Shown: piece by piece, positions 896-22,218 of the stretch
Numbering within the stretch: position 1 is the stretch's first letter
Layout: each line of letters opens with the position of its first letter
IMG/VR virus record: IMGVR_UViG_3300025137_000334
Span: 1 to 22,218 of that record
Source of the DNA: a virus
Direction: 5' to 3' (one strand)
DNA length: 22,218 bases
Position numbers and translations under genes: made by a program
Notes under the pieces: generated by a model
Told to the model about the DNA's origin: nothing
The model's input: only the letters and a program-made list of their open reading frames with translations
Databases searched by the model: none

Positions 896-2569
896 TTAAA
901 ATGTTCCACCGTCTATAGTACAGCTTGTAAGAACTGTATTTTTAAGACCGCCATTAGCCTTTAAACCAGTACTAAGAACCATTTGTTGGTTTGAGCCAGA
1001 GTTATATTCAAAGATAAACGAAACTTCAGCACCGCCGCTCCCTTGACCTAGAAGAAGACCAGCTCCAGTTAGCTGCGCGAGCCCGGTGTTTTTAGCCAGT
1101 TGAAGATCTTTATCAGCTATTTCAATAGTTGTAGAGCTTACTGTCGTAGTACTGCCGTTAACAACAAGATTACCTTCAACTGTAAGAGTTCCAGTCGCAT
1201 CACCATGCGCCGCAGGATCAATCGTAAAATCTGCCGGGCCGCGCAGGTAACCAGTAGTCGTAATATTATCAAATGTTACATCATCGGTAGTTGCAACAGG
1301 TTGGCCAATAGCTATAGTAGGTGTTGCTCCTTCAGCTCCTACATTGCCTGTAATAGTAACACCGGTGCCTGCAACTAAAGAAGCAACATAACTTCCGGAA
1401 GTGTGCGTTGTAAGAGCTACAACACCTGCAGTAATTTCTTGTCCAGATAAACTTAGATAGTTTTGTCCAGCTAATGTAACATTTGTTGAATTATCAGTAC
1501 CTGCTGCATCGACGACGAGATTAGTTCTTGCAGCTGCGGCTGTAGATGCTCCTGTGCCACCATGCGCCACCGCAACATCAGTTGCTGCCCATGTACCTGC
1601 TGCAATAGTCCCGAGAGTTGTAATACTTGTTGAACCTGCAGCAGGAGCTCCACCAATATCACTAAGAACATCTGCTCCAGTTCTAAACTTAACATCGCCG
1701 CTATCTGACACAAGAAACTTACTCGCGGTAGACCCTTTGTTCGCAAGCGCGCTGAATGTCACTGTAGAAGCTGCTTCAAAATCTGTACTGACTAGTAAGT
1801 CTCCTGTTACCGTAGCATTATTTGAAACTGATAAAGTACTTAATGTTGTTGTTCCAGCGATACTTTGACCGCCTGTAGTTCTAATAACTGTACTATCAAC
1901 TGCTACTGTAGTTGCGGTACCTTCTCCGGCAGCGCCAGTAATAGTAATACCGGAAGCGCCAGATGCTCCAGCGACCGTCGCGACATAGTTTCCAGAAGTG
2001 TGTGTTCCAAGAGCAACATTTCCCTGAACAATATCTTGACCACTTAACGTAATATAGTTATGTCCTGAAGTTGTAGCAAGAGCATCTGTCGTTAAAGCAA
2101 AAGTACCAGTACCGCCTGGAATCGTATGGCCGTTTATTTTGCCACCGCCCGTAAGACCAAGATTAGCAGCGGTTACAGATCCCGCAGTAACAACATCACC
2201 GTCATTTCCTGCAACACTAAACACCGTGACACCAGAATTAGATACTGCAATCCCTTGAGATCCAGAACCAACAACTGCAATACCACCGTTTGCGTTTAAA
2301 AGAGAAGTAAGTGTTTTTACCCCAGCAACGTTTTGGGCAGTTGTTAGATCGACAAAGTCCGCGTTTGTTGGAATATCTGAAGTCTCAGCGAAGTTCCCTT
2401 CACCACCGATCGCCACTATCGTGGCCGCGGTATCTCCTCCGCCGGAGGTTCCTTTTCCATAGTATAGAATATCATCTACTTCGTTAAAGGCTAATTCTCC
2501 ATTTTTAAGTGAGCTCGGCGCGCCGCTTGAACCCGATGCTCTCCTTTTAATTCTAATTGAGTTCGACAT
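896..2569 (-). CDS. Tail fibre-type virion protein, 557 residues
   Basis: Likely trimeric fibre protein on the virion surface. Residues 1-40 carry the marine T4-like fibre N-terminal module (RIKRRASGSSGAPSS, then LKNGELAFN and DDILYYGKG), probably the attachment end. The shaft is Gly/Thr/Ser/Ala-rich. It has a duplicated block at residues 172-224 and 371-422 (each with LSGQ, THTSG and YVA). It also has the fibre motif GGTGASTAAAARTNL (337-351) and the widespread segment TTTVSSTTIEIADKDLQLA (474-492). The protein ends CTIDGGTF, like the upstream 119-residue product, which ends DIMDGGNF. A late promoter octamer at 2602-2609 lies 32 bases before the ATG. No Shine-Dalgarno sequence is evident. 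Family-level fibre assignment is firm; whether it is the receptor-binding or an accessory fibre is unknown. Confidence 0.85.
   Translation of the reverse strand: MSNSIRIKRRASGSSGAPSSLKNGELAFNEVDDILYYGKGTSGGGDTAATIVAIGGEGNFAETSDIPTNADFVDLTTAQNVAGVKTLTSLLNANGGIAVVGSGSQGIAVSNSGVTVFSVAGNDGDVVTAGSVTAANLGLTGGGKINGHTIPGGTGTFALTTDALATTSGHNYITLSGQDIVQGNVALGTHTSGNYVATVAGASGASGITITGAAGEGTATTVAVDSTVIRTTGGQSIAGTTTLSTLSVSNNATVTGDLLVSTDFEAASTVTFSALANKGSTASKFLVSDSGDVKFRTGADVLSDIGGAPAAGSTSITTLGTIAAGTWAATDVAVAHGGTGASTAAAARTNLVVDAAGTDNSTNVTLAGQNYLSLSGQEITAGVVALTTHTSGSYVASLVAGTGVTITGNVGAEGATPTIAIGQPVATTDDVTFDNITTTGYLRGPADFTIDPAAHGDATGTLTVEGNLVVNGSTTTVSSTTIEIADKDLQLAKNTGLAQLTGAGLLLGQGSGGAEVSFIFEYNSGSNQQMVLSTGLKANGGLKNTVLTSCTIDGGTF
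1304..1459 (-). repeat. Copy 2 of the internal duplication in the 557-residue fibre protein
   Basis: Codes residues 371-422, beginning YLSLSGQEITAGVVALTTHT and ending in GATPTIAIG. It aligns with residues 172-224 of the same protein, with the same spacing of LSGQ, THTSG, YVA, TITG and EG. The duplication is visible at protein level and partly at DNA level. Confidence 0.7.
1898..2056 (-). repeat. Copy 1 of the internal duplication in the 557-residue fibre protein
   Basis: Codes residues 172-224, beginning YITLSGQDIVQGNVALGTHT and ending in GTATTVAV. It is the partner of the block at 1304-1459. Between them lies about 150 residues of other shaft sequence. Confidence 0.7.
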
Positions 2570-2612: not shown

Positions 2613-2972
2613 TTAAAAATTTCCACCATCCATTATATCAGTGTTTTCAAACTTTGATGTTGTAGTATTATATTTGATTAAATCATCTTCACCAACGCCT
2701 GTTATAGTAACATCGCTAAGCTGATTTAATCCGGTATTAGTAAATGTTTTTGTTCCTTCAACTGTTTGATTTCCTGATGTCCGAAGAACGCTGTTATCAA
2801 CGGCAACAGTTTTTGGAGTAGCTCCGGTATAATGAAAATCAGTAATACCATCACCATCAGTTAAGGCAGCTCCACCCCCACCAGTCGAAACTTGTTTAGG
2901 TATAATCTTCTTATCTGGATTAACCTGAGCGTTTATAGTGTTTTGTGTAGTTACCTTAGCTTTAATTGACAT
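2613..2972 (-). CDS. Small fibre-like virion protein, 119 residues
   Basis: The frame is open from an ATG at 3029, but that start would overlap the preceding gene by 50 bases and add 19 residues unlike the rest. The ATG at 2972, just after the preceding stop at 2980, gives the more plausible product beginning MSIKAKVTTQ. The protein has a Gly run (31-34) and the block VAVDNSVLRTSGNQTVEGTK (56-75). That block closely matches residues 222-241 of the 557-residue fibre (VAVDSTVIRTTGGQSIAGTT). It also has the common fibre-type ending LSDVTITGVGEDDLIKYN and C-terminus DIMDGGNF. It looks like a minimal fibre or fibre-accessory protein made from the same repeat units. No enzyme motif is seen. Exact role unknown. 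Confidence 0.7.
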   Translation of the reverse strand: MSIKAKVTTQNTINAQVNPDKKIIPKQVSTGGGGAALTDGDGITDFHYTGATPKTVAVDNSVLRTSGNQTVEGTKTFTNTGLNQLSDVTITGVGEDDLIKYNTTTSKFENTDIMDGGNF

Positions 2973-2979
2973 TAGTATA

Positions 2980-3330
2980 TTATGTTTCTGGGGCAGAGGA
3001 ATCAAATGTGACACCAGGCGTGACATCAATCTGCCCTTCTAAAATCCGTGTTATTACTTTAGGACTACTAGGAGATACAATAATAACGTCGTAGACATAC
3101 CTGCCAGGTTTAAGGGCTGCAGTTTGAGCCGCAGTTAATGAAATTGATACTGTTTTAGCAGTACTATCAACAGATGCAGAGAATGTCGCTTTTGCAGTAC
3201 CGTCATAAGATTTAGCAACCTTACCCGCAGCAGTGTAATTAGTAAGTACTAAATTTGGAGTGTCGGATAGATCGATTGTCGTATTAAAATTCGATCCTTG
3301 ATCTATGAATAGGTTTGAAAATGTTGACAT
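2980..3330 (-). CDS. Small beta-rich virion protein, 116 residues
   Basis: The sequence suggests a single beta-sandwich: FSNLFIDQGSNFNTTIDLSD at the N-terminus, a Ser/Thr/Ala-rich middle, and RYVYDVIIVSPSSPKVITRI followed by LEGQIDVTPGVT. The latter pattern is common in small structural proteins encoded among the fibre genes of marine T4-like phages. It also recalls baseplate upper-protein N-terminal domains that hold receptor-binding proteins. The gene starts 4 bases after the preceding stop (3335). A weak purine-rich AGAGAG lies about 10 bases before the ATG. It is probably co-transcribed with its neighbours. Structural role is inferred from context. Confidence 0.7.
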   Translation of the reverse strand: MSTFSNLFIDQGSNFNTTIDLSDTPNLVLTNYTAAGKVAKSYDGTAKATFSASVDSTAKTVSISLTAAQTAALKPGRYVYDVIIVSPSSPKVITRILEGQIDVTPGVTFDSSAPET

Positions 3331-4233: not shown

Positions 4234-7200
4234 TATAACGTTGCGATTACTCTTAGGTTTTTAATCTCTGGGACAAACGTCTTATCTGAAGATTTAAACA
4301 GAATCTTGACAGCAACTTGATTAAACTGGTCGGCCGCACTACCTTCAAACTCGACTTCGCCAAATTCAAAGTTGGTACTTACTGGTATCTTAGACCCATC
4401 CTTAAGATTAATCCTTGTCCAACCAAGTGAGTCAAATGGTGTGGTTGAATTAAGTGTATTAAACTTAGCATATACTTCAATTGAAGTCGATCCATCAGGC
4501 CGCATCGCGTCCGCGTAAATATTAATTTGATCCGCGGGAGATTCAAGCTTTATGCTCTTTGTAATATACCTTGCAGCACATTGTCCATCATCGCGGGTTC
4601 CTTCAAACTCACTTGAATTATTAACAATATTATCAAACGTAACAAGTGATATACGATCTAAATCAACGACTGGCGAAATTCTAGAATCTGTTGTAGATAG
4701 TACAGCTTGAAGTTTTAATTGCTCTGCATTAGAACCATTGTAAGCACTAGTAGAATCGTGTGTAACACGCTTACCTGTATAAATCAATTCTCCAGGAAAT
4801 ACGTTATAAGTACCACCCGAACCACTAGTTGCATTATCTGTTAATGTGTAATTAACATTAGATTCTGGAAGAAGCATATCTTGAATAATTGGAAGATACG
4901 ATGATGCTTTCCAAGTGTCAACACTCGCAGTAGCTGTTGCAGCTGTTGCAGTATTAAGAGTTTGCTGTTTTCCACCGCGGTCTGTGAAAGCCACTTGAGT
5001 TGTAAATACTGCTGAAGTGTATAACTTAATTATTCTACTATATGGTACTTCGTTTCCATTTGAATCAATTGTTTTTGCGTAATACGTAGTACCATTCGTT
5101 AACCCGTTGATTGTTGATCCGCTGTTTGTCTTATATGTAAATGCTTGGCCATTTTTTGCCTCGAGAACACCGGCCGGGAGATAAATTTTGTTATTACCAA
5201 AATCAACACCTCCATCAGTTGTATTAAAGGCATCTGCGTGAATGCTAATCCCTTGATCAACAACTGCTACTGTAGGAGGGCCAGTATAACCAGATCCATT
5301 TGTAATAACTTCGATATGATCAATAACACCACCTTTTCCAACGTGTGCTTTTGCTGTTGCTCCAGATCCTGAACCGCCAGTAAATGTTACTGATGGAGAA
5401 CCACTAAGATAACCAGAACCACCAGAAACAACATTTACATATGTAACTTGTTTCCTCTGAGGCGATAGCCCAGTGAATACCGCTGTTGCGCTACTTGTTG
5501 TTTTAAAGTCTGCTCTCTTAAGTGCAAACTTAAGATCCTTATTCTGATCTGGTGTCCATGTTGAAGCATTTTGGCTCTTAAGCATTACTCCAAGATTAAC
5601 ATTCTTATTGATCTTCTCGGCATTTGCTCCAACATCGGTTCCACCAACTTCAGCGTGCCATACTCGGTATCTCGCGCTGTTCGATATTAGAACGATAGCA
5701 TATTCAACACCAGGTTGTAAGTAAACTGGTGTATCAAACATAAACTTAGTTTCATTACTGGCATTAGTCGCTGAAACATTAACATCGCCTGAAAGTTTAA
5801 CAACCTTTGAGAATGGAATTGTTTTCTGTGTAGGAATACCATTCTCAACAGATACGATGCTAAGCTCAACGGGGAGATAAGGATCTTTTTTCTGGAAGAA
5901 AATATCAATTGAAGAAAGGAAAATACCAGTTGGCTCGTTTCCTATCATGAAAGTCTGAGCAATAGGATCTCTTCGAACAACCTTTTCTCCTATAAGAAGA
6001 TTGCGGCTTTCTTTCAAACGTGTTCTTTCTAGAACTAGCTGGCGAGTCGAAAGTATAGTCTTCTGCCTTGTTTCTAAAAGTCCTTTAGCGTGATATGTAG
6101 ACTCAGCAGATGAAAGTTCAAGAGTTCTGTTATTATCAGATCTATCAGTCAAGCGAACTTGACGAGATCCGGTTCTGAATCGTAAGCTATTATTATTAGG
6201 AATAACAAACCATCCATCAACGTCTCCTGCAGAGTCTGTTGTAATAGTATTGGCCGAGTCTTCTGCGATTGTGTCGGTAATAGCTGCAGCTAAATTACCT
6301 TCATAGCGAGCAACATCAGTTCCTCCTGCGGTTGCAACATCACCACCAAATTGGGAAAAAGTCGCATCCCCATTAGCATAAGATGTAATGTTAACATCAT
6401 CAAAGAATAGATTAAATGTAGTATTCGGCTTAAGCATTCTACCTCTAAAGTAAACCTTACGGGAACGAATAAACGGAACAAAGGTAATATTTAGAAGATC
6501 ATCTCCTACAACTTCCCTTTCGGTATTCTCTACGAGAGATGTTTGAATACCCTCTCTGTTCTGACGAAGGAATTCCTTTTGATTTCCTCTCCTCCTAGAA
6601 GTCCACGTTGTTTCTGTGAATGTATCAGCAACTTGTATCGAACTAGTTTTAGCCATAAACCAACGGCCGTGTCGAACCTTTTTAGATTTCCACTGAGCTT
6701 CCCATTCGTTCCACTCTGTTCCAAGGATGTTGGCGTTATTAGCAATTTGGTTAATTAAAGCGCTGTTATCCCCTTCGATATTATTAATAATATCAGGAAC
6801 ATAGTTAACATCTTTCCATTCATCAGATGATGGAGAAAGTTCTAATGATCCGCTCCAAGTTGCTACGTCATAAGGATTAACGCTAATATGATCTGATGCA
6901 AATGGCTGATCAACCAATACTTTTTCAATAAAATCAAGTGTTAATGAATTTTTTCTTTTGCCGGAATAGATATTAGTAGAAGTAATCGTCCCACCGTTCC
7001 AGGTGGTACCACTACTTGCTGTGGCTGTGCTTTGTACACTACCCGACGTCCCTTTGATAAAACTCCATCTAACATTATCAGAAAGATAGGTAGGACGAGC
7101 AGTAAAGTTTTCTCGATCAATAGCGGCCTTATAACCAGGGCTACTAACATCACCTACACCATGACCTCTAAATGAGTCTGTGAGAATACCACCTTTAAAT

Positions 7201-14493: not shown

Positions 14494-14937
14494 TTAGCGG
14501 ATTCGGTCGAGGTAGAAAGATACCTCAGCGTTAGTATTTGTATTTCTAATTTGGAAAACTATTGTTACGAGAAGTCTGTTATATTCTTGATCCAGCTCTA
14601 CTTCTACTTTTGGTTTGCTGACTCGAGGCTCACGTCTTTTGATAATCCTTAATACCTCATCCTTAATTCCCATAGCAGTAAACTGATCGGCATTCTCGAA
14701 AAGATAGCGTGTTACGTTGGCACCAAGTTCAGGATGAAATGGCCGATCAGAAAAGTTACTTAGGACAAGAATCTTTACGGCCTGCCGGATCGCTTGAATA
14801 TCTGTAATAGGACGAATGTCCTTTGTATTAGGATGAGCGATAAAATCAAGAGGGATGTCAGCAAAAAGACCGGCCGTATCAACCGAGGCGATCGATGGTA
14901 CCTTCTCGTTAACGTTATAGTCTGATCTTAATCCCAT
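14494..14937 (-). CDS. 25: Baseplate wedge subunit gp25 (GPW/gp25 family)
   Basis: Homologue of T4 gp25 (132 residues; 147 here) and P2 gpW. It sits at the inner end of the wedge, contacts the tube/hub and is thought to initiate sheath polymerisation. The conserved RPFHPELGANVTRYLFEN (65-82) is the family signature, and the EPR motif (103-105, in KRREPRVSKP) is the strongly conserved element of gp25-type proteins. It is followed by gp6 after 5 bases, matching W-J in P2. The ATG is 6 bases beyond a late promoter octamer at 14944-14951, so a leaderless start is possible. No Shine-Dalgarno sequence is seen. Confidence 0.93.
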   Translation of the reverse strand: MGLRSDYNVNEKVPSIASVDTAGLFADIPLDFIAHPNTKDIRPITDIQAIRQAVKILVLSNFSDRPFHPELGANVTRYLFENADQFTAMGIKDEVLRIIKRREPRVSKPKVEVELDQEYNRLLVTIVFQIRNTNTNAEVSFYLDRIR

Positions 14938-14943
14938 AAAATC

Positions 14944-14951
14944 TATTTATA
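14944..14951 (-). promoter_or_regulatory. T4-type late promoter octamer TATAAATA overlapping a stop codon
   Basis: Exact octamer on the minus strand, followed by G. The TAA stop of the 141-residue gene (14947-14949) lies inside it. The gp25 ATG (14937) follows after six bases, at about the predicted transcription start. It would start a wedge-gene transcript. Confidence 0.6.
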
Positions 14952-15372
14952 TAAAAATTACACCGTTTACGTCAGGAAGCTTACCTTCTCTTAATATTAA
15001 CTCTTCATAAAGGCGAATACCTTCAGCAATATTAACCTCAGGTAGAAAAAGCTTTTGACTATCAATTCCAGGACAGGTCAGTGGATTGACGCTAAACAGC
15101 CCTATGCGTTCTACCTCTTCCAAAAGACCTGCTGAAGAATAGGACCTCACAAGCTTCTTAAAGTTAGCGTTAAGGTCAGAAGACGTCTTCATTAATGAAA
15201 TAAAGTATAACGCATACTCTTCTGGTTTACCGCTATAAACCTTATGTTTGTTTGCATTGCTTGGAACATAGCTGTTGAGCTTTGTCTTACGGACTTGATC
15301 AGATATTGCAACAGTAAGAAACTTTTCACTTACAAATCCGTTAACGTCTGGTTTTAGATATATATTTTTCAT
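14947..15372 (-). CDS. Unrecognised protein between hub and wedge genes, 141 residues
   Basis: I do not recognise a family. The protein begins MKNIYLKPDVNGFVSEKFLT and has a helical centre (EEYALYFISLMKTSSDLNAN, then FKKLVRSYSSAGLLEEVERI). It ends with a helical segment (IAEGIRLYEELILREGKL) and the hydrophobic tail VNGVIFI. There is no signal peptide, membrane helix or zinc motif; the single cysteine is in NPLTCPG. It starts one base after the stop of the M15-domain gene and ends inside the gp25 promoter, so it belongs to the baseplate transcription block. Its place between spike and gp25 suggests a structural or assembly role at the hub-wedge interface, by context only. Confidence 0.65.
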   Translation of the reverse strand: MKNIYLKPDVNGFVSEKFLTVAISDQVRKTKLNSYVPSNANKHKVYSGKPEEYALYFISLMKTSSDLNANFKKLVRSYSSAGLLEEVERIGLFSVNPLTCPGIDSQKLFLPEVNIAEGIRLYEELILREGKLPDVNGVIFI

Positions 15373-15373
15373 T

Positions 15374-17935
15374 TTAAACTCGATTGTCGAAGGCTGAGGT
15401 TAACCATTGTGGCGCGTGTTTCCTCCTATATTCTTTAGCCTTTGCACCCCAACAAGCTTTTTCTGATTTGTGCGGACCTAAATGCGAAATATCTACATGA
15501 AGGTTGCCAGTCATATAATCGTCATCGGCTCCTATAGAACCGATACCGTTATTTAAAAGCACTAGTACAAAATCTCTTAGCGCGTCGATGTCTTTAGAAC
15601 TCTTGCTGGCCGCGTGTATTCTTCGCCCTTTGTCGTTGTAAACACGCATGTCTACGGCATATCCACCATCGTGTCGTTTTGAACCTTCCCTTCTCGTACC
15701 TCGACCTATATAATCTTGACCACCTGAGTATATCACAAGACTATAATTTTTCTCAGCAGCAGAAGCTTCTAAGATTTTCATTAACTTTGGCTGAATTGGT
15801 TTATTACGTATTTTGCTGCTAAAGTTTGAAGAGTACGATACGTTACCAGGAACCGCATTTTTAAACTCGTCTGTGGGTGTGCCATTAATACTATCGTCGA
15901 CCGGGTCGCCTTCGCTGCCTTCATTTAAAGCATCTATAATCCTTTGTTTTTTCTCATTACCGAGCTCAGCGCTATATGCCCACGACGCCATAAATATAAG
16001 TTGGATGTTTATTCCTTCTTCGCTAAAGAAATATCTCTTTACAGCAGCGGCCATTTGGCCCGGAAATTTTGACAGTAAATCGTAATTGGCTTGATCCTGA
16101 AACGAGATATTCAGAGAGTTTTGACCTTCGAAAATAAAGCCGACTGGTGGGATTGTATCATCCTCCCAGATTAAAAAATCATTTATCTCGTAGTCAGGAG
16201 TCGGGAAGAATTCCTTCCTCAAATTATATATGTTCTCCTGCAAGTACTTTTGGTACCAAATGATCCAATCCGACATCATCTTATATGGAACCGCAAATAA
16301 ACCAACCTCGTGCATTTCAGCACGCATTTCGTCCAACCTAGCTTCTGACAGAGGAATAGGCTCTTTCGCATGCATAAATTCCCGAGCTGTCACGTAATCA
16401 GGACCCTTAGCTATTTCTTTTAATTTCTCCCATTTTTCTGGCCCATTCCTAAGATAATTTGCCCATATATAAGCATCATCATTTCTAAGCTCAGTCCACA
16501 AATTATGCCAATCGGAATACGCTTTCTCGTATTTTGCAGGAGTGATACCTGTGGCTGCCTGCACCTCGTTTTGCGCAGTGTTCTTTGACTGAGTAGGAAC
16601 AACAGAACTCTGCTCAGGATCCTCAATATCCCTCTCAGGTATACTAGGAAGCTCGGGTTTTTTTACCAAACTACCGTCGGCCCCTGTCTTTCCCTCAAGG
16701 CCAACCAGCGAACATATATCTAAACCTCCGATATCATCAAAGTAACCAGCTACGTTATCAACAGCACCCTTCCACTTTTCGTTGAGCTTGTCTATTGCAT
16801 TAAAATCGTCAGGGTCCACGCCCGCTATATCAGCAGCTAGATTTTGTATCTGAGCCCCTTTTGGCAGGCTGTTTTCTATATCGGCCTTTAACCCCTCGAG
16901 CTTTTTCTCGATATCCAAAAGGCCTGTTGAGGATGCTGCTGCAGCTACTGCTGCCTTAGCATCTTTGAGTCTTTCGCTTATGCCGTCTGTTGCTATGCCT
17001 GGTATTTTTATATCACCGGGAAACCCTACGCACTTTGTTGGGTCTAATGCTGGAACAACTGCAGCAACTACGGCGAACGCAGACAAAGCAGTTTCGAAAC
17101 TTGGAGTATCATCGATACCATCACCAGTTGTATCACCGGGTATATCTCTATATAACGTATTAGGTGACGTCATTGCAGCAACAGTAAATGGATATGTTAG
17201 TGCTCCACTATATACTGCATAAGACGTGTTACTACTATTATCAAATAACCATGTATCACCAGAACTATGTGGGCGTAGTGTCCAATTCGATTCTTTACCG
17301 TATATTGTTTCGAACTGTTCTTGTGTCGCGAATGGTGCAAACAATCCAAATCGATTATCTCCATTAGTACCAGCCATAACACTAAAATCTCCAAAGCCTC
17401 GAATCAAAGGTGTATTAGATACAGAATCACTATTGCAACCAATGAGTATATCAGTGATCGGGCCGTTTGTAAATATTGGTGTTATACTATCGATCGATCG
17501 TGCTGCAGTGTGGAACTTAGCTACAGGTGTTTGGCTACTCCCTAAGTAACCAGTATTAGTCACAGCTAATGTGTAATAAGGTCCATCAGTTAAAGTGCTA
17601 ATAACTGCCGGGGTAACTAATACGTTTGTAACAGAATCGCTCTGAGTATTTGAAAGTTGTGGATACGCTAAATTACTACCTAATGCATTATTACTATTAG
17701 GATCTTCGACAACATCGATTAGAATATAAAACGTATGATTTAAAGTTGTTTGACTCCAGCAATAAACAAAGTTACCGAATCGTACAACAGTCGGAAATGT
17801 ATCCCATAATGACCAATCAGTATCGGTATTAGTACTCCATATATCAGTGTAATCGTTACTACCATAGGCAATAACCTCTGCAGAACCTTCAGCACTTATG
17901 ACTGTTTTTGTTATTGGATAATTTATCGTTGCCAT
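15374..17935 (-). CDS. Large virion protein with C-terminal M15-type zinc peptidase domain (probable tail-associated lysin)
   Basis: Probable tail-associated cell-wall hydrolase of 853 residues. Near the C-terminus, HDGGYAVD (755-762) fits HxxGxAxD, the M15 peptidase zinc motif, and GNLHVDIS (810-817) supplies the second histidine (H813) in an HVD context as in M15 peptidases of the YcbK type. The predicted zinc ligands are H755, D762 and H813; acidic residues D804-D806 and D815 are candidate general bases. Such enzymes cut peptide bonds in peptidoglycan stems. The N-terminal 260 residues are beta-rich. DTTGDGIDDT (268-277) resembles a calcium-binding loop. Residues about 315-360 are helical and 480-690 are rich in Trp and Tyr. 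The gene starts after gp5, with AGGA inside the gp5 end as a ribosome site. gp5 lacks the T4 lysozyme domain, which fits this protein supplying the activity. Confidence 0.75.
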   Translation of the reverse strand: MATINYPITKTVISAEGSAEVIAYGSNDYTDIWSTNTDTDWSLWDTFPTVVRFGNFVYCWSQTTLNHTFYILIDVVEDPNSNNALGSNLAYPQLSNTQSDSVTNVLVTPAVISTLTDGPYYTLAVTNTGYLGSSQTPVAKFHTAARSIDSITPIFTNGPITDILIGCNSDSVSNTPLIRGFGDFSVMAGTNGDNRFGLFAPFATQEQFETIYGKESNWTLRPHSSGDTWLFDNSSNTSYAVYSGALTYPFTVAAMTSPNTLYRDIPGDTTGDGIDDTPSFETALSAFAVVAAVVPALDPTKCVGFPGDIKIPGIATDGISERLKDAKAAVAAAASSTGLLDIEKKLEGLKADIENSLPKGAQIQNLAADIAGVDPDDFNAIDKLNEKWKGAVDNVAGYFDDIGGLDICSLVGLEGKTGADGSLVKKPELPSIPERDIEDPEQSSVVPTQSKNTAQNEVQAATGITPAKYEKAYSDWHNLWTELRNDDAYIWANYLRNGPEKWEKLKEIAKGPDYVTAREFMHAKEPIPLSEARLDEMRAEMHEVGLFAVPYKMMSDWIIWYQKYLQENIYNLRKEFFPTPDYEINDFLIWEDDTIPPVGFIFEGQNSLNISFQDQANYDLLSKFPGQMAAAVKRYFFSEEGINIQLIFMASWAYSAELGNEKKQRIIDALNEGSEGDPVDDSINGTPTDEFKNAVPGNVSYSSNFSSKIRNKPIQPKLMKILEASAAEKNYSLVIYSGGQDYIGRGTRREGSKRHDGGYAVDMRVYNDKGRRIHAASKSSKDIDALRDFVLVLLNNGIGSIGADDDYMTGNLHVDISHLGPHKSEKACWGAKAKEYRRKHAPQWLTSAFDNRV

Positions 17936-17939
17936 ATTA

Positions 17940-19247
17940 TTATGATCCTACTCCTGTTCCCCCGATTGATGCGTTTGTATCGCCTTGTGATGTAGCGTCA
18001 GCTGCTGTATTTGGTTGTGAATGCATATGTGTTATAAGAGAAACACCACCACCTCCAGCTACTACATCACCGCTCACTCTTGCGTTTGGTGTATTTATGT
18101 GTATCTTTTCAGGACAGTTAATCTTAAGATTCTTAGAAGAGTTAATTGTTTTTGATCCTAAACATATATCAAAATCGTTGTTTATTATAGTATTATTTCT
18201 ATCAGCACCTACAATTAATATATCATTTACTGATATGTTTTGTGTTCGTGACGCACCTACTTGTAACGTTTGGTTAACGCCGATTGTAGTTTGCTGGTCA
18301 TCGCCTACACTAATAACTTGCCCGTCCTTTACTTTAAGCAGATCAGTAGTGCCTATATTAAATTCACGCTTGCCGACAACCTCTGTGATAGAGTCTCCGC
18401 CTATTTTAGTTTTAACATTACCTTCCACATTAAAGGTCATGTCTTTTCCTACGTCGACAACATAGTTACCCTCACATTTAACATTTACGTCTCCATCCAC
18501 GGTTAAATTGCAATTACCAACTATATAGACAGTGTTATCCTTAGAGTGTACTGTATAGCCATCCCCTACTATAGTATCTATCTTAGATCCATCACTTATA
18601 ATGTCAGACGATGTACCAGAGCTATGTGTAGTAGATATTCTCTCATAAGTAGGTGTATCATCGTATTCAATTATGTGTCCAGCCTCAGTTTGTGTAACAT
18701 TATTGTGTGGATATTGGGGATTATAGTATGTTTTTGGGTCTGGTAGTGATACACCTTTATCTTCTGGTTTATCTTCATCGGATAGGCTAGATAGATGTGG
18801 TTGTCTAGCAATAGGTATGTCTGTAACTCTTTGTGCTAGTCTGTTTTTGTATACATCTGATATAGAATCGGTAGCACTATTCGGTGTATCTGTTCCAGTT
18901 TGTTTAGGGTATGTACCATTCGGGTCTTTAAAACCTTCTCCGTCTTGTACTGGTTGTGTACTTTCTCCTGGTAGTGAGCCAAGTATCAAGGCTTCTTGTT
19001 CGTTCGGGCCGTCAATAAATGTACCAAACACCCAGCTGCCTTGTACGAGTCCGAGTGTCTGCCCTATACCTGATGTCGATGCGCATGTCACTGGCATAAC
19101 TACATTATACCATGGTAGGCTCTTGGTCGGCAGTAGTGTTAAATCTTCGGTGTGCTTACCAAATATACGTACGCGTACACGATTTAATTGAGATGGATCG
19201 TTATTATCTTCTACGACACCAATAAAGAATTGTGGATTTTGAATCAT
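17940..19247 (-). CDS. 5: Baseplate hub spike gp5, without lysozyme domain
   Basis: Central spike protein that pierces the outer membrane. Residues 1-95 form the expected OB-fold (FFIGVVEDNNDPSQLNRVRV, LPWYNVVMP, GSWVFGTFIDG, LILGSLPGE). A linker follows. From about 225 to 400 a repetitive stretch (VDGDVNVKCEGNYVVDVGKD and TTIGVNQTLQVGA) is the intertwined triple beta-helix. At 435 residues against 575 in T4, the T4-type lysozyme segment between OB-fold and helix is absent. The C-terminus has DVVAGGGGVSLITHMHSQP, with H407 and H409 forming an HxH motif. In P2 gpV-type spikes such histidines from three chains hold an iron ion at the tip. The ATG overlaps the preceding stop (ATGA), suggesting coupling with the gp27-like gene. 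Confidence 0.9.
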   Translation of the reverse strand: MIQNPQFFIGVVEDNNDPSQLNRVRVRIFGKHTEDLTLLPTKSLPWYNVVMPVTCASTSGIGQTLGLVQGSWVFGTFIDGPNEQEALILGSLPGESTQPVQDGEGFKDPNGTYPKQTGTDTPNSATDSISDVYKNRLAQRVTDIPIARQPHLSSLSDEDKPEDKGVSLPDPKTYYNPQYPHNNVTQTEAGHIIEYDDTPTYERISTTHSSGTSSDIISDGSKIDTIVGDGYTVHSKDNTVYIVGNCNLTVDGDVNVKCEGNYVVDVGKDMTFNVEGNVKTKIGGDSITEVVGKREFNIGTTDLLKVKDGQVISVGDDQQTTIGVNQTLQVGASRTQNISVNDILIVGADRNNTIINNDFDICLGSKTINSSKNLKINCPEKIHINTPNARVSGDVVAGGGGVSLITHMHSQPNTAADATSQGDTNASIGGTGVGS

Positions 19248-20608
19248 AATGTTGTTTCGGGTTGTATCGAATCAGTCTTTGCTACTATCTCTGTATCATG
19301 TACACCATCTTTGAACGTATGAATACAAGAAAATATAAGATACTGGCCCGATAACATAAGGTCATACCGCTCTGTATCTGATTTTCCAGTGTACTCTTTA
19401 TATATAAGTGGATCGGTTGCCTTCGGAAAATGTAATGCTATCGTTCTTCCTGGGTTAAGAAGTGTATCTCCCATCACAGTAAAGCTATGAGAACATGCAT
19501 CATAGTTAGAAATATATGCACGTGAGATATGTGATTGCTCTTCGGCGAGCTCATTCATATTCTTTGGTCCATTATACGACGAACGATTCACATAATGGTA
19601 TGCTATATTCGCTTGTGGTATCTTATTCAATGGTGATCCCGCCTCAGATTCACGTTTATTCTTGACAGATTGACCATACGCTACATTCTTTTTTGATGTA
19701 CTGTATTCACTCTTTAATACCTTTGAAGCATCGAATATATGCTTACGATAATTCTTTTTAGCGATATCCACATAACGATTTTCAGATGCAAACGCACCTT
19801 TCTTCGCTTGTAATGATGGTGCAAGGCCGATATTTGAATTGACTTTCAGCATCTGTGTAGACCTCTCTAGATAGTTGGCATGCGTATTCGGTGTAGTATC
19901 TAGTTGATTTGTACTTCGAAACGTTTTATAAATAGGATTCTCATCTCTATTGTTAATATAGCTCAAAGACGTAAGTTGAACAAACCCTGAAAGGTCTTGG
20001 TACAAAAAATATGGTGTGCGATTAATATCTGCAGCAGTATCTAGTACTGTCATAGCTGCTCTCAGTGGATTTGATATGTTTATATTACCATCGAATTGTG
20101 TACCGCATTTACCAAATGTAGCAAAATTCGACACATTCAAGTCGTCTTTCATGATTCGCTCGATGATAGACACGTTAGTTCCAGATATTGTTCGCGAAAT
20201 TGTTTTAAGCGGTGCAATATAAGCATGCTCTGACACAGCAACTAATGTATAAGCCTGCACCTGTGAGTTTTCAGCGTTCCTAGCGTAATCATTATATTCC
20301 TGTACGTAAAACTTATAAGATAGTGTACGTTCAACATCAAATGATTTAGTGACAATTTCAATATAAAGAATTTCGTTACCAGTAATGTTAAATTCTTCTA
20401 GGAAGTTTGATTCATCACGGATCCCAACCTCGCATACAAGCGCAGGAGAAAAAAGACTTTCGTGTATCTTAGTATAACCCACCATGCCACGTATGTCACG
20501 GCGTTGGCCGTTAACATTTTCCATGACACACTCTGTCAATTGATAGGCAGAATTCCCTATAGAATTACCTTTTTCATCAACAAAGCCTCTATTAAATTTA
20601 TCACTCAT
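19244..20608 (-). CDS. Baseplate hub protein, gp27-like
   Basis: Probable hub ring protein that links tail tube and gp5 spike. The match to T4 gp27 (391 residues; 454 here) is at the level of layout. ITGNEILYIEIV (76-87) resembles T4 MDGNEIIQISVA, and the C-terminal part has the pattern LNPGRTIALHFPK ... SGQYLIFSCIHTF ... DTEIVAKTD. This parallels T4 LTPGVKIIF ... EFYVDEVIHEL ... THLYMFTN. It lies directly upstream of gp5 and overlaps it by 4 bases (ATGA). It overlaps the gp53 end by 8 bases. Such D-V adjacency is also found in P2-like phages. No Shine-Dalgarno sequence is seen, so coupling is likely. An alternative is another hub subunit that is not orthologous to gp27. Confidence 0.7.
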   Translation of the reverse strand: MSDKFNRGFVDEKGNSIGNSAYQLTECVMENVNGQRRDIRGMVGYTKIHESLFSPALVCEVGIRDESNFLEEFNITGNEILYIEIVTKSFDVERTLSYKFYVQEYNDYARNAENSQVQAYTLVAVSEHAYIAPLKTISRTISGTNVSIIERIMKDDLNVSNFATFGKCGTQFDGNINISNPLRAAMTVLDTAADINRTPYFLYQDLSGFVQLTSLSYINNRDENPIYKTFRSTNQLDTTPNTHANYLERSTQMLKVNSNIGLAPSLQAKKGAFASENRYVDIAKKNYRKHIFDASKVLKSEYSTSKKNVAYGQSVKNKRESEAGSPLNKIPQANIAYHYVNRSSYNGPKNMNELAEEQSHISRAYISNYDACSHSFTVMGDTLLNPGRTIALHFPKATDPLIYKEYTGKSDTERYDLMLSGQYLIFSCIHTFKDGVHDTEIVAKTDSIQPETTL

Positions 20609-21614
20609 TCAGCAGTTTTTTAAATTCTCGTGCGAAGGCCTCTATGTATATTGGATCTACCACTTTGATTTTTTTTCTCAAATTATTTTCCTCTATTATG
20701 TCATCATATATTGACACATAATTGCTCGCTTCAGGACCTGCATTATATTCACTTATTTCCTCGTTAATATTTGTTGGATCGTAATAATGTGCAGGAGCAA
20801 GAGATCCGTCTTTCCAATACTGAGTAGATGTTAACGTGTAATTTGCATCTAAGATATCATCTGGATAATTTTCAAAAAAGGCATTCGGCCTAAATCTAAC
20901 TGCAATTGGTCTTAGCTCGTCTAAAAATGATTTACGAAGGCCTATAGTTGTTGAATTATCACGAAATTGAACGCTAAAATCTCCGGAAGCTTCGCTAATA
21001 TAGAATAAATTAATTTTTGATTCAGCCGAATATTTAATATCTAAGGTGCTTTCTGTGCCTACTTCAGCATTTACCGATGCATCTTCTGCAAACCAAGTGA
21101 TGTCGCTATTATCAATCCAAATAAGAGACATATTTGGATCATAATCTATAATCTTAGCCGAAGCAAATACTCGTTTATTTTGCTCAGTACCAATAACTTT
21201 ACACAACCTTAAATACGGAGAATAAGATGTATTTTTAAACGGAATACCCGTTATCATTGATCTCCTCCCTTGGCTGTCAGCCTCTCCAACTGGAAATCTA
21301 AACGCAGAAATGTTTTTGTACTGATTAGCTATATAGTTTTTAATCTCGCTATCGCCTTTTGGCCATGCTGATAGACCCTCTTTTAATGAGTCGTTAGTGA
21401 TAAAAAATGTCCAATAGTAATCAGGTGTGCCATAAAGTCTATGCGAAACTGTGTCAGGCCTTTCTGCATTGATAATATCAACTGTATTATATGCATATGA
21501 GTTTTGTGCTAATCGATCAATAACATCCACATAGCGAAAATAGTCGGTGATTACAGTTTGAATAGCATCGCCTTGTACACTATACAAAGCTTTTGGAAAT
21601 TGATTAAAAAACAT
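20601..21614 (-). CDS. 53: Baseplate wedge subunit gp53
   Basis: Homologue of T4 gp53, which clamps adjacent wedges around the hub. The N-terminal half shows the family pattern: MFFNQFPKALYSVQGDAIQT, a helical DYFRYVDVIDRL, then ERPDTVSHRLYGTPDYYWTF (51-70) and FITND. The last part matches T4 RPEELANAIYGNPQLYWVLLMCND. The C-terminus (residues 310-337) is helical (KKIKVVDPIYIEAFAREFKK), as in T4 (RQIKIIAKSDINSFMNDLIR). At 337 residues it is longer than T4 gp53 (196), with extra sequence in the middle (about 95-305). A 73-bp space precedes it without an obvious TATAAATA. Its end overlaps the next gene by 8 bases. Confidence 0.88.
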   Translation of the reverse strand: MFFNQFPKALYSVQGDAIQTVITDYFRYVDVIDRLAQNSYAYNTVDIINAERPDTVSHRLYGTPDYYWTFFITNDSLKEGLSAWPKGDSEIKNYIANQYKNISAFRFPVGEADSQGRRSMITGIPFKNTSYSPYLRLCKVIGTEQNKRVFASAKIIDYDPNMSLIWIDNSDITWFAEDASVNAEVGTESTLDIKYSAESKINLFYISEASGDFSVQFRDNSTTIGLRKSFLDELRPIAVRFRPNAFFENYPDDILDANYTLTSTQYWKDGSLAPAHYYDPTNINEEISEYNAGPEASNYVSIYDDIIEENNLRKKIKVVDPIYIEAFAREFKKLLNE

Positions 21615-21687: not shown

Positions 21688-22218
21688 TCATTTGCCAGTA
21701 ATTTTTTTGGCAAAATTAATTGCATTTTGGGCTGATTTCGCCTTAGTTATTTGTTCTTCACTTTCCTTTAGATTTTTCAGGGCCGTATCCTGAAGTTCTG
21801 CAACACTATCTGTTAAGCTGTTAAATGCTTCGTCAAATTCATTTTCTCTGATACCGTCTTCAAGATCAACAATTTCCTCCCGCGTAAGGATTTTTGTTTC
21901 TTGGAATTGTAACGACACGTCAATTTCATAAGGTGACATGTCTTCATCACGAAAAGTGTTTGACGACGCATTTATAACTGTATTTGCCGCTGTAAGATAA
22001 CATGAATAAATTTTAGGCATATAGGTTAATTCTTTCCCTCCTTTTGGCTCTAGAAATTCAATAATCCACTTTGGCGGGTATTTAAGCATAAAACTACTAA
22101 CACCTCCTAATTTCGATGCATACACCTTTTCTCTAAATACTCGTTGTATAGCATCGATCTCCTGGACTTCCTGCTTGGATTTTCCGATCATTTTAAAATC
22201 AAATTGGAAATTTCTAAG
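21688..22218 (-). CDS. Baseplate tail-tube cap/initiator, gp48/gp54 family, C-terminal part (5' end beyond window)
   Basis: The frame stays open past the ATG at 22191 to the window edge and adds LRNFQFDFK before that methionine. The ATG is therefore internal and the gene is cut by the right edge. The visible part reads FQFDFKMIGKSKQEVQEIDA, then FREKVYASKLGG, SFMLKYPPKWIIEFLEP, and ends with SPYEIDVSLQFQETKILTRE and a charged helical tail. A field of beta strands with the ending 'Y-E-I-D-x-S-L-x-F-x-E' is typical of T4 gp48 and gp54, which cap the hub and start tail-tube assembly. The fragment is too short to choose between gp48 and gp54. It lies just upstream of gp53, fitting the hub-to-wedge order. 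Confidence 0.75.
   Translation of the reverse strand, partial: LRNFQFDFKMIGKSKQEVQEIDAIQRVFREKVYASKLGGVSSFMLKYPPKWIIEFLEPKGGKELTYMPKIYSCYLTAANTVINASSNTFRDEDMSPYEIDVSLQFQETKILTREEIVDLEDGIRENEFDEAFNSLTDSVAELQDTALKNLKESEEQITKAKSAQNAINFAKKITGK

Follow-up and report, generated by a model that had tools for sequence, protein, structure and literature searches.

A virion-borne enzyme that cuts the cell wall is known at the baseplate hub of phage T4, where the muramidase of the gp5 tail lysozyme lies in the middle of the protein (PMC3004832). Most known virion-associated lysins are glycosidases according to a 2017 review (PMC5380687). Those of the peptidase type are known chiefly from phages of Gram-positive hosts, and phi6 P5 was given there as the sole demonstrated endopeptidase among the virion lysins of phages of Gram-negative hosts (PMC5380687). 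The gp5 of pelagimyophages is strongly divergent, which may reflect adaptation to host walls (PMC7029224).

We have analyzed a stretch of DNA of 22,218 nucleotides from a marine T4-like virus (IMG/VR record IMGVR_UViG_3300025137_000334), which we call the window. It encodes an 853-amino-acid protein, the carrier, that may be, like the T4 tail lysozyme, a virion enzyme of the baseplate hub that cuts the wall. The window differs from T4 in having no muramidase in gp5, and an M15-like domain on another protein.

The baseplate locus and its spike

By Pfam and PHROGs the window is a section of a T4-like phage baseplate module, in which all the genes are on the minus strand. The genes around the carrier are as follows.

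21688-22191, minus strand: tail-tube-cap protein (gp48/54-like) of the baseplate, phrog_230; the open reading frame continues beyond the window end
20601-21614, minus strand: gp53-like baseplate wedge protein, PF11246
19244-20608, minus strand: 454-amino-acid tail protein, phrog_350, probable gp27-like hub, the gp27-like assignment being made from position
17940-19247, minus strand: gp5 spike, OB fold and β-helix without lysozyme, with the C-terminal tip motif SLITHMHSQ (HxH)
15374-17935, minus strand: 853-amino-acid carrier directly downstream of gp5, with about 690 N-terminal amino acids and a C-terminal peptidase-like domain
14947-15372, minus strand: 141-amino-acid protein, matching no family
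14494-14937, minus strand: gp25 baseplate wedge, PF04965
12668-14488, minus strand: gp6 baseplate wedge, PF21379

More wedge and fiber genes lie downstream of gp6 in the window. Two proteins of the fiber region (2616-3029 and 899-2569, minus strand) have matches to BppL_N, a short motif found in lower baseplate proteins, the second below the cut-off. The nearest relatives of the gp6 among cultured phages are about 35% identical to it and belong to Kyanoviridae of Methylophilales, Pelagibacter and cyanobacteria. Full-length orthologues of the carrier are present in IMG/VR contigs, and in the complete loci inspected there the gene always lies between gp5 and gp25. All complete loci also conserve the gene for the 141-amino-acid protein (14947-15372), placed between those for the carrier and gp25.

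The gp5 of the window (17940-19247) has 435 amino acids, with Pfam matches to Gp5_OB at residues 35-136 (1.9e-23) and to the trimerization β-helix at 305-359 (3.1e-9). The Pfam search found no lysozyme family in it, including between the OB fold and the β-helix, and a lysozyme-bearing gp5 used as a positive control matched PF00959 in the same kind of search. An earlier note, made from the sequence alone, had described this gp5 as lacking the muramidase segment, and in this it was right. Its further proposal, that the wall enzyme had been moved from the spike or replaced in it, is not borne out. The gp5 proteins of HTVC008M, Mosig, C48C1, Vibrio phages D479 and Va3 and Pseudomonas phage Astolliot have no lysozyme, while that of Morganella phage vB_Mm5 has one. 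Because lysozyme-less gp5 is common among T4-like phages, no loss of lysozyme is demonstrated in the lineage of the window.

All gp5 orthologues of the window group that reach their C-terminus end in SL[IM]THxHxQ, an ending absent from the gp5 of the cultured Kyanoviridae compared. HxH is a metal-binding tip motif in P2-type spikes. No PAAR gene was seen near the gp5 of the window, and given the HxH ending the spike may therefore carry its own tip.

The C-terminal domain of the carrier

The carrier reading frame (15374-17935, minus strand) encodes 853 amino acids, and 15374-15820 corresponds to residues 706-853 plus the stop codon. The C-terminal part has these features.

15377-15856, minus strand: LAS/M15-like domain, type I, SGGQ subfamily, residues 694-853
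15716-15727, minus strand: SGGQ, residues 737-740, replacing the SGYR(S) of canonical M15 enzymes
15650-15673, minus strand: HxxGxAxD motif H755-D762, with H755 and D762 as putative zinc ligands, aligned with HTKGQAMD of MepK
15491-15499, minus strand: H813-V-D815, with H813 as putative third zinc ligand; HxD as in MepK
15449-15451, minus strand: W829, a Trp invariant downstream of HxD and aligning with the W in RHW of MepK

The HxxGxAxD string alone is weak evidence for a peptidase domain because the same string arises by chance in gp5 orthologues (those of loci L028, L029 and L030, within the β-helix). In the carrier the possibility that the motif is likewise a chance occurrence was rejected on the basis of the predicted fold and conservation. 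Among 12 aligned type-I domains, with identities down to 41%, H755, G758, A760, D762, H813, D815, W829 and the SGGQ of 737-740 are invariant, and every complete type-I orthologue retains the H755/D762/H813 triad. The domain is under purifying selection, with dN/dS = 0.14-0.29 against four orthologues.

The 853-amino-acid carrier gave no informative match against Pfam, NCBIfam or PHROGs, nor with phmmer against the PDB; its antibody and myosin matches are due to chance. A full-length AF2 model has a pLDDT of 57, and its 690 N-terminal residues are not interpretable. The significant BFVD matches of this model come with C-terminal-domain proteins.

Residues 690-853 were modeled with AF2 using only the window and IMG/VR sequences, giving a pLDDT of 84 and a pTM of 0.84. 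The model has the α/β architecture with antiparallel sheet of the LAS fold, with modest scores. In the PDB, the best 14 Foldseek matches all belong to the LAS clan (VanX, MepA, ChiX, hedgehog, T5 endolysin, LysECD7 and a Streptomyces DD-peptidase), with probabilities of 0.93-1.00 except for the Streptomyces enzyme, the last, at 0.47; E-values reach only about 1e-3 to 1e-2, with TM values near 0.4-0.5. With VIA the best 43 rows are all LAS-type with Z = 4.7-7.0 and unrelated folds start at Z = 4, where a Z below 8 can reflect merely a common arrangement. Among the best BFVD matches are proteins of 1070, 826 and 886 residues consistent with Rhizobium phage tail proteins, together with phage entries named 'Peptidase M15' and gp5 OB-fold proteins. 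The positions of the strands fit H755, D762 and H813 as putative zinc ligands at the sequence level. The model places the C-terminal domain in the LAS/M15-clan fold class.

The earlier note had located HDGGYAVD at H755-D762 and H813 within GNLHVDIS, and both the letters and the coordinates are correct. It took these to indicate an M15-type zinc peptidase domain on a separate tail protein. Comparison of the predicted structure of residues 690-853 with the PDB agrees, the best matches being M15, M74 and hedgehog proteins, all of the LAS clan. What stands of that claim is the LAS-clan fold and its place on a separate, large protein of the baseplate operon, and what finds no support is the move from the spike.

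The domain was aligned with E. coli MepK, an L,D-endopeptidase of M15_3/DUF882 type, with which it has 20% identity. SGYRS falls over SGGQ, HTKGQAMD over HDGGYAVD and FVHIDTGPARHW over LHVDI...W, so that the two share the order SG.., HxxGxAxD, HxD, W. MepK is a stand-alone cellular enzyme with the Arg of SGYRS, whereas the window domain is part of a carrier and has Gln there. M15_3/M15_2 (MepK-type) enzymes are characterized by HxD with a Trp after it close to the C-terminal end; the window domain has H813-x-D815...W829, compared to HID...W in MepK. The acid located three residues before the last zinc His in M15C and VanX is absent, the residue at H813-3 being G810, and MepK also lacks it. As read from the alignment, the arrangement is MepK-like, with HxD and no acid at H-3, and unlike VanX or M15C. 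The position of the SGYRS Arg is occupied by Gln740, and by Gln in the Rhizobium phage relatives also. The M15 Arg is thought to stabilize the transition state, as described for VldE (PMC11667670). Its role might be taken over by R754, which is invariant, or by R749, which is conserved, both lying just before H755.

No Pfam, NCBIfam or PHROGs model matched the domain, and the Pfam families M15_2, M15_3, M15_4 and VanY are not listed for it even at E ≤ 10. The domain profile (A5) found only weak matches among PDB sequences, three out of four being M15C peptidases. Alignment of type-I with type-II domains by hhalign gave E = 0.054 in the right register, which is not significant alone. Since no model in these libraries recognizes the domain, we call it M15-like and assign it to none of the named M15 families. 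It represents an uncatalogued subfamily of the LAS clan.

Exchange of the enzyme, and probable function

Three independent contigs (L029/L045, L030 and L046) have carriers with the same N-terminal modules and a different C-terminal domain. This domain contains SKHQTGRAIDI and WGGDFKxFYDGPHLEI, and its scores for Peptidase_M15_4 and VanY exceed the Pfam cut-offs; in PHROGs the domain of L029 matches phage endolysins at 3.5e-31. Gene position, N-terminal modules and the presence of a C-terminal M15-clan enzyme are all as in the window, but the enzyme is a canonical endolysin-type M15 with YRS, SKHxxGxAxD and DGPHLE, where that of the window is of SGGQ type. In the L029 protein (L029:7321-10278) the M15 domain also matches phrog_5115 at 2.3e-15; the label of that family, 'ferredoxin', is probably a misannotation.

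Identities differ between segments of the carrier. L024 and the window are 44-45% identical in residues 1-280 and 74-76% in both 281-440 and the enzyme. L024 and L029 are 66-67% identical in 1-280 and at most 41% thereafter, with different enzymes. Between L030 and L029 the identity is 40-49% in 1-280, but 96% in 281-440 and 89% for the enzyme. Divergence is greatest in the linker (441-690). The segment identities show that the modules reassort, and with the two C-terminal endings they indicate a conserved carrier on which the enzyme is an interchangeable module. As these are metagenome contigs assembly chimeras are possible; the pattern recurs across separate contigs. The carrier orthologues of L019, L043 and L044 are about 1157 amino acids long, with some 300 extra residues in the variable linker corresponding to residues 441-690 of the window protein.

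Homologues of the domain occur outside the carrier. Among 1088 open reading frames the domain HMM matches tail proteins from Rhizobium phages, with E-values of 5e-13 to 7e-12. These are large proteins encoded in tail gene clusters, in which the domain is preceded by the PF18013 tail lysozyme. The 'putative tail proteins' of RHph_TM30 and RHph_I42 (1070 and 889 amino acids) have the same SGGQ...RTGSxRHxxGxAxD...HxD domain and lie in a tail/baseplate gene cluster. They differ from the window in having the lysozyme in the same chain and a domain that is not at the extreme C-terminus, and their N-terminal part has no recognizable kinship to the carrier. A cellular homologue from Methylobacterium has HVG where the window has HxD, and is fused to a bacterial SH3 domain (SH3_3). 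SH3 fusion is common among wall hydrolases. A 335-kb contig binned to Neomarinimicrobiota (L061), virus-like by its neighboring genes, encodes a 362-amino-acid protein with an SGGQ-type domain two genes ahead of one with a PAAR-like start and M15_3 at 4.8e-19 (L061:3401-4489 and 5289-6077), and thus two wall peptidases near one another.

We consider that the carrier is probably a modular virion-associated endopeptidase, a LAS-clan zinc peptidase domain borne on a protein associated with the baseplate hub that opens the wall at infection; we infer the virion location, zinc, catalysis, substrate and timing. This explanation draws on gene position, the triad, purifying selection, the LAS-type predicted fold, homology to lysozyme-bearing tail proteins and natural exchange. 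The position of the gene in the baseplate operon suggests that the carrier is a virion component, and the homologues suggest that its domain would cleave peptidoglycan. It might be delivered with or beside the lysozyme-less gp5 spike, to which its link is genomic, and, with the tube being driven through, the peptidase domain would enter the periplasm. A single zinc ion held by H755, D762 and H813 could then activate water, and cutting of a stem peptide or cross-link would open the wall locally for passage of the tail tube.

Three other explanations were weighed against this. The domain could have the LAS fold and perhaps bind zinc yet be catalytically dead, serving to bind the cell wall or cell surface, much as hedgehog has the fold in a signaling role. 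Hedgehog structures are indeed among the best structural matches, and the domain has Gln (in SGGQ) for the canonical M15 Arg and no acid at H-3. But MepK also lacks that acid, and the remainder diverges to 41% around three putative zinc ligands that do not vary. Moreover the Rhizobium relatives combine the domain with a tail lysozyme, and its replacement by a canonical endolysin-type M15 domain in relatives suggests that an enzyme function is kept. We therefore regard a dead domain as unlikely. The exchange, in which both fillings are of the M15 clan, is the strongest functional argument that the sequences offer.

The same exchange bears on whether the enzyme might instead act during assembly, as a processing protease in the maturation of baseplate or hub proteins. 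A zinc peptidase fold is encoded inside an assembly operon, and T4 gp5 is itself proteolytically processed (PMC3004832), but the endolysin-type domain that is swapped in and the SH3 domain of the Methylobacterium relative point to the cell wall, and the relatives in other phages adjoin lysozyme domains. We give this role very little weight. Just as improbable in our judgment is a peripheral baseplate or adsorption protein, not associated with the hub, whose peptidase acts on a surface protein or other outer layer before the wall is reached. Like host-recognition modules, the linker and the N-terminal 280 or so residues vary and undergo independent recombination, and any contact of the carrier with gp5 is conjectural; yet the gene is invariably between gp5 and gp25, and the recognizable homologues are peptidoglycan-type M15 enzymes.

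Within the favored explanation of an entry endopeptidase, we suggest tentatively, as a possibility that we would not bet on, that the carrier is a plug-in enzyme holder, with a conserved hub-side part and a socket for exchangeable wall peptidases. The socket would take either an SGGQ-type LAS enzyme, in which Gln replaces the catalytic Arg and cross-link specificity may differ, or an endolysin-type M15, the choice tracking the peptidoglycan of the host.

Wall enzymes at other T4-like hubs

In the literature searched we found no published M15 peptidase adjoining gp5 in T4-like phages, which does not prove that there is none. The gp5 of Ochrobactrum phage vB_OspM_OC provides one parallel, a T4-like spike region with an M15_3 peptidase (5.7e-13), like the M15-like domain near the spike of the window. 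There gp5 itself contains the peptidase, which follows the OB domain and is accompanied by a second, lysozyme2 domain, whereas in the window it is on a separate protein. In this gp5 (L016:4279-6705) M15_3 and the PF18013 lysozyme both follow the OB fold. An M15 domain is probably also present in the split gp5 of Melnitz, where VanY falls below the cut-off, and at the end of gp5 in Caulobacter phage Cr30, where the match is weak.

Pseudomonas phage Astolliot has, as in the window, a lysozyme-less gp5 and an M15 peptidase on a nearby hub protein. That protein has 334 amino acids and an N-terminal PAAR tip domain, compared with the 853 of the window carrier. Its gene (PAAR-M15_3, L057:6937-7941) adjoins gp5 and is annotated only as hypothetical. 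Searching the whole records of HTVC008M, Mosig, S-PM2 and C48C1 with VanY and M15_3 gave no matches, so that a recognized M15 domain is not universal in Kyanoviridae. A 'peptidase' annotated beside the hub genes of C48C1 matches no Pfam peptidase family.

The general pattern in these sequences is one of gain and loss of wall enzymes at the hub, on different proteins. From these loci, zinc enzymes that cut peptides seem to be widespread at the T4-like hub and to be exchanged as modules, which fits the divergence of gp5 in pelagimyophages (PMC7029224). The analysis also defines a recognizable enzyme subfamily that is named by none of the profile libraries searched. Virion-borne wall-cutting enzymes such as the T4 tail lysozyme being already known, what is new here is a modest twist: an M15-like subfamily, so far uncatalogued, borne next to gp5 on a carrier whose enzyme is exchangeable.
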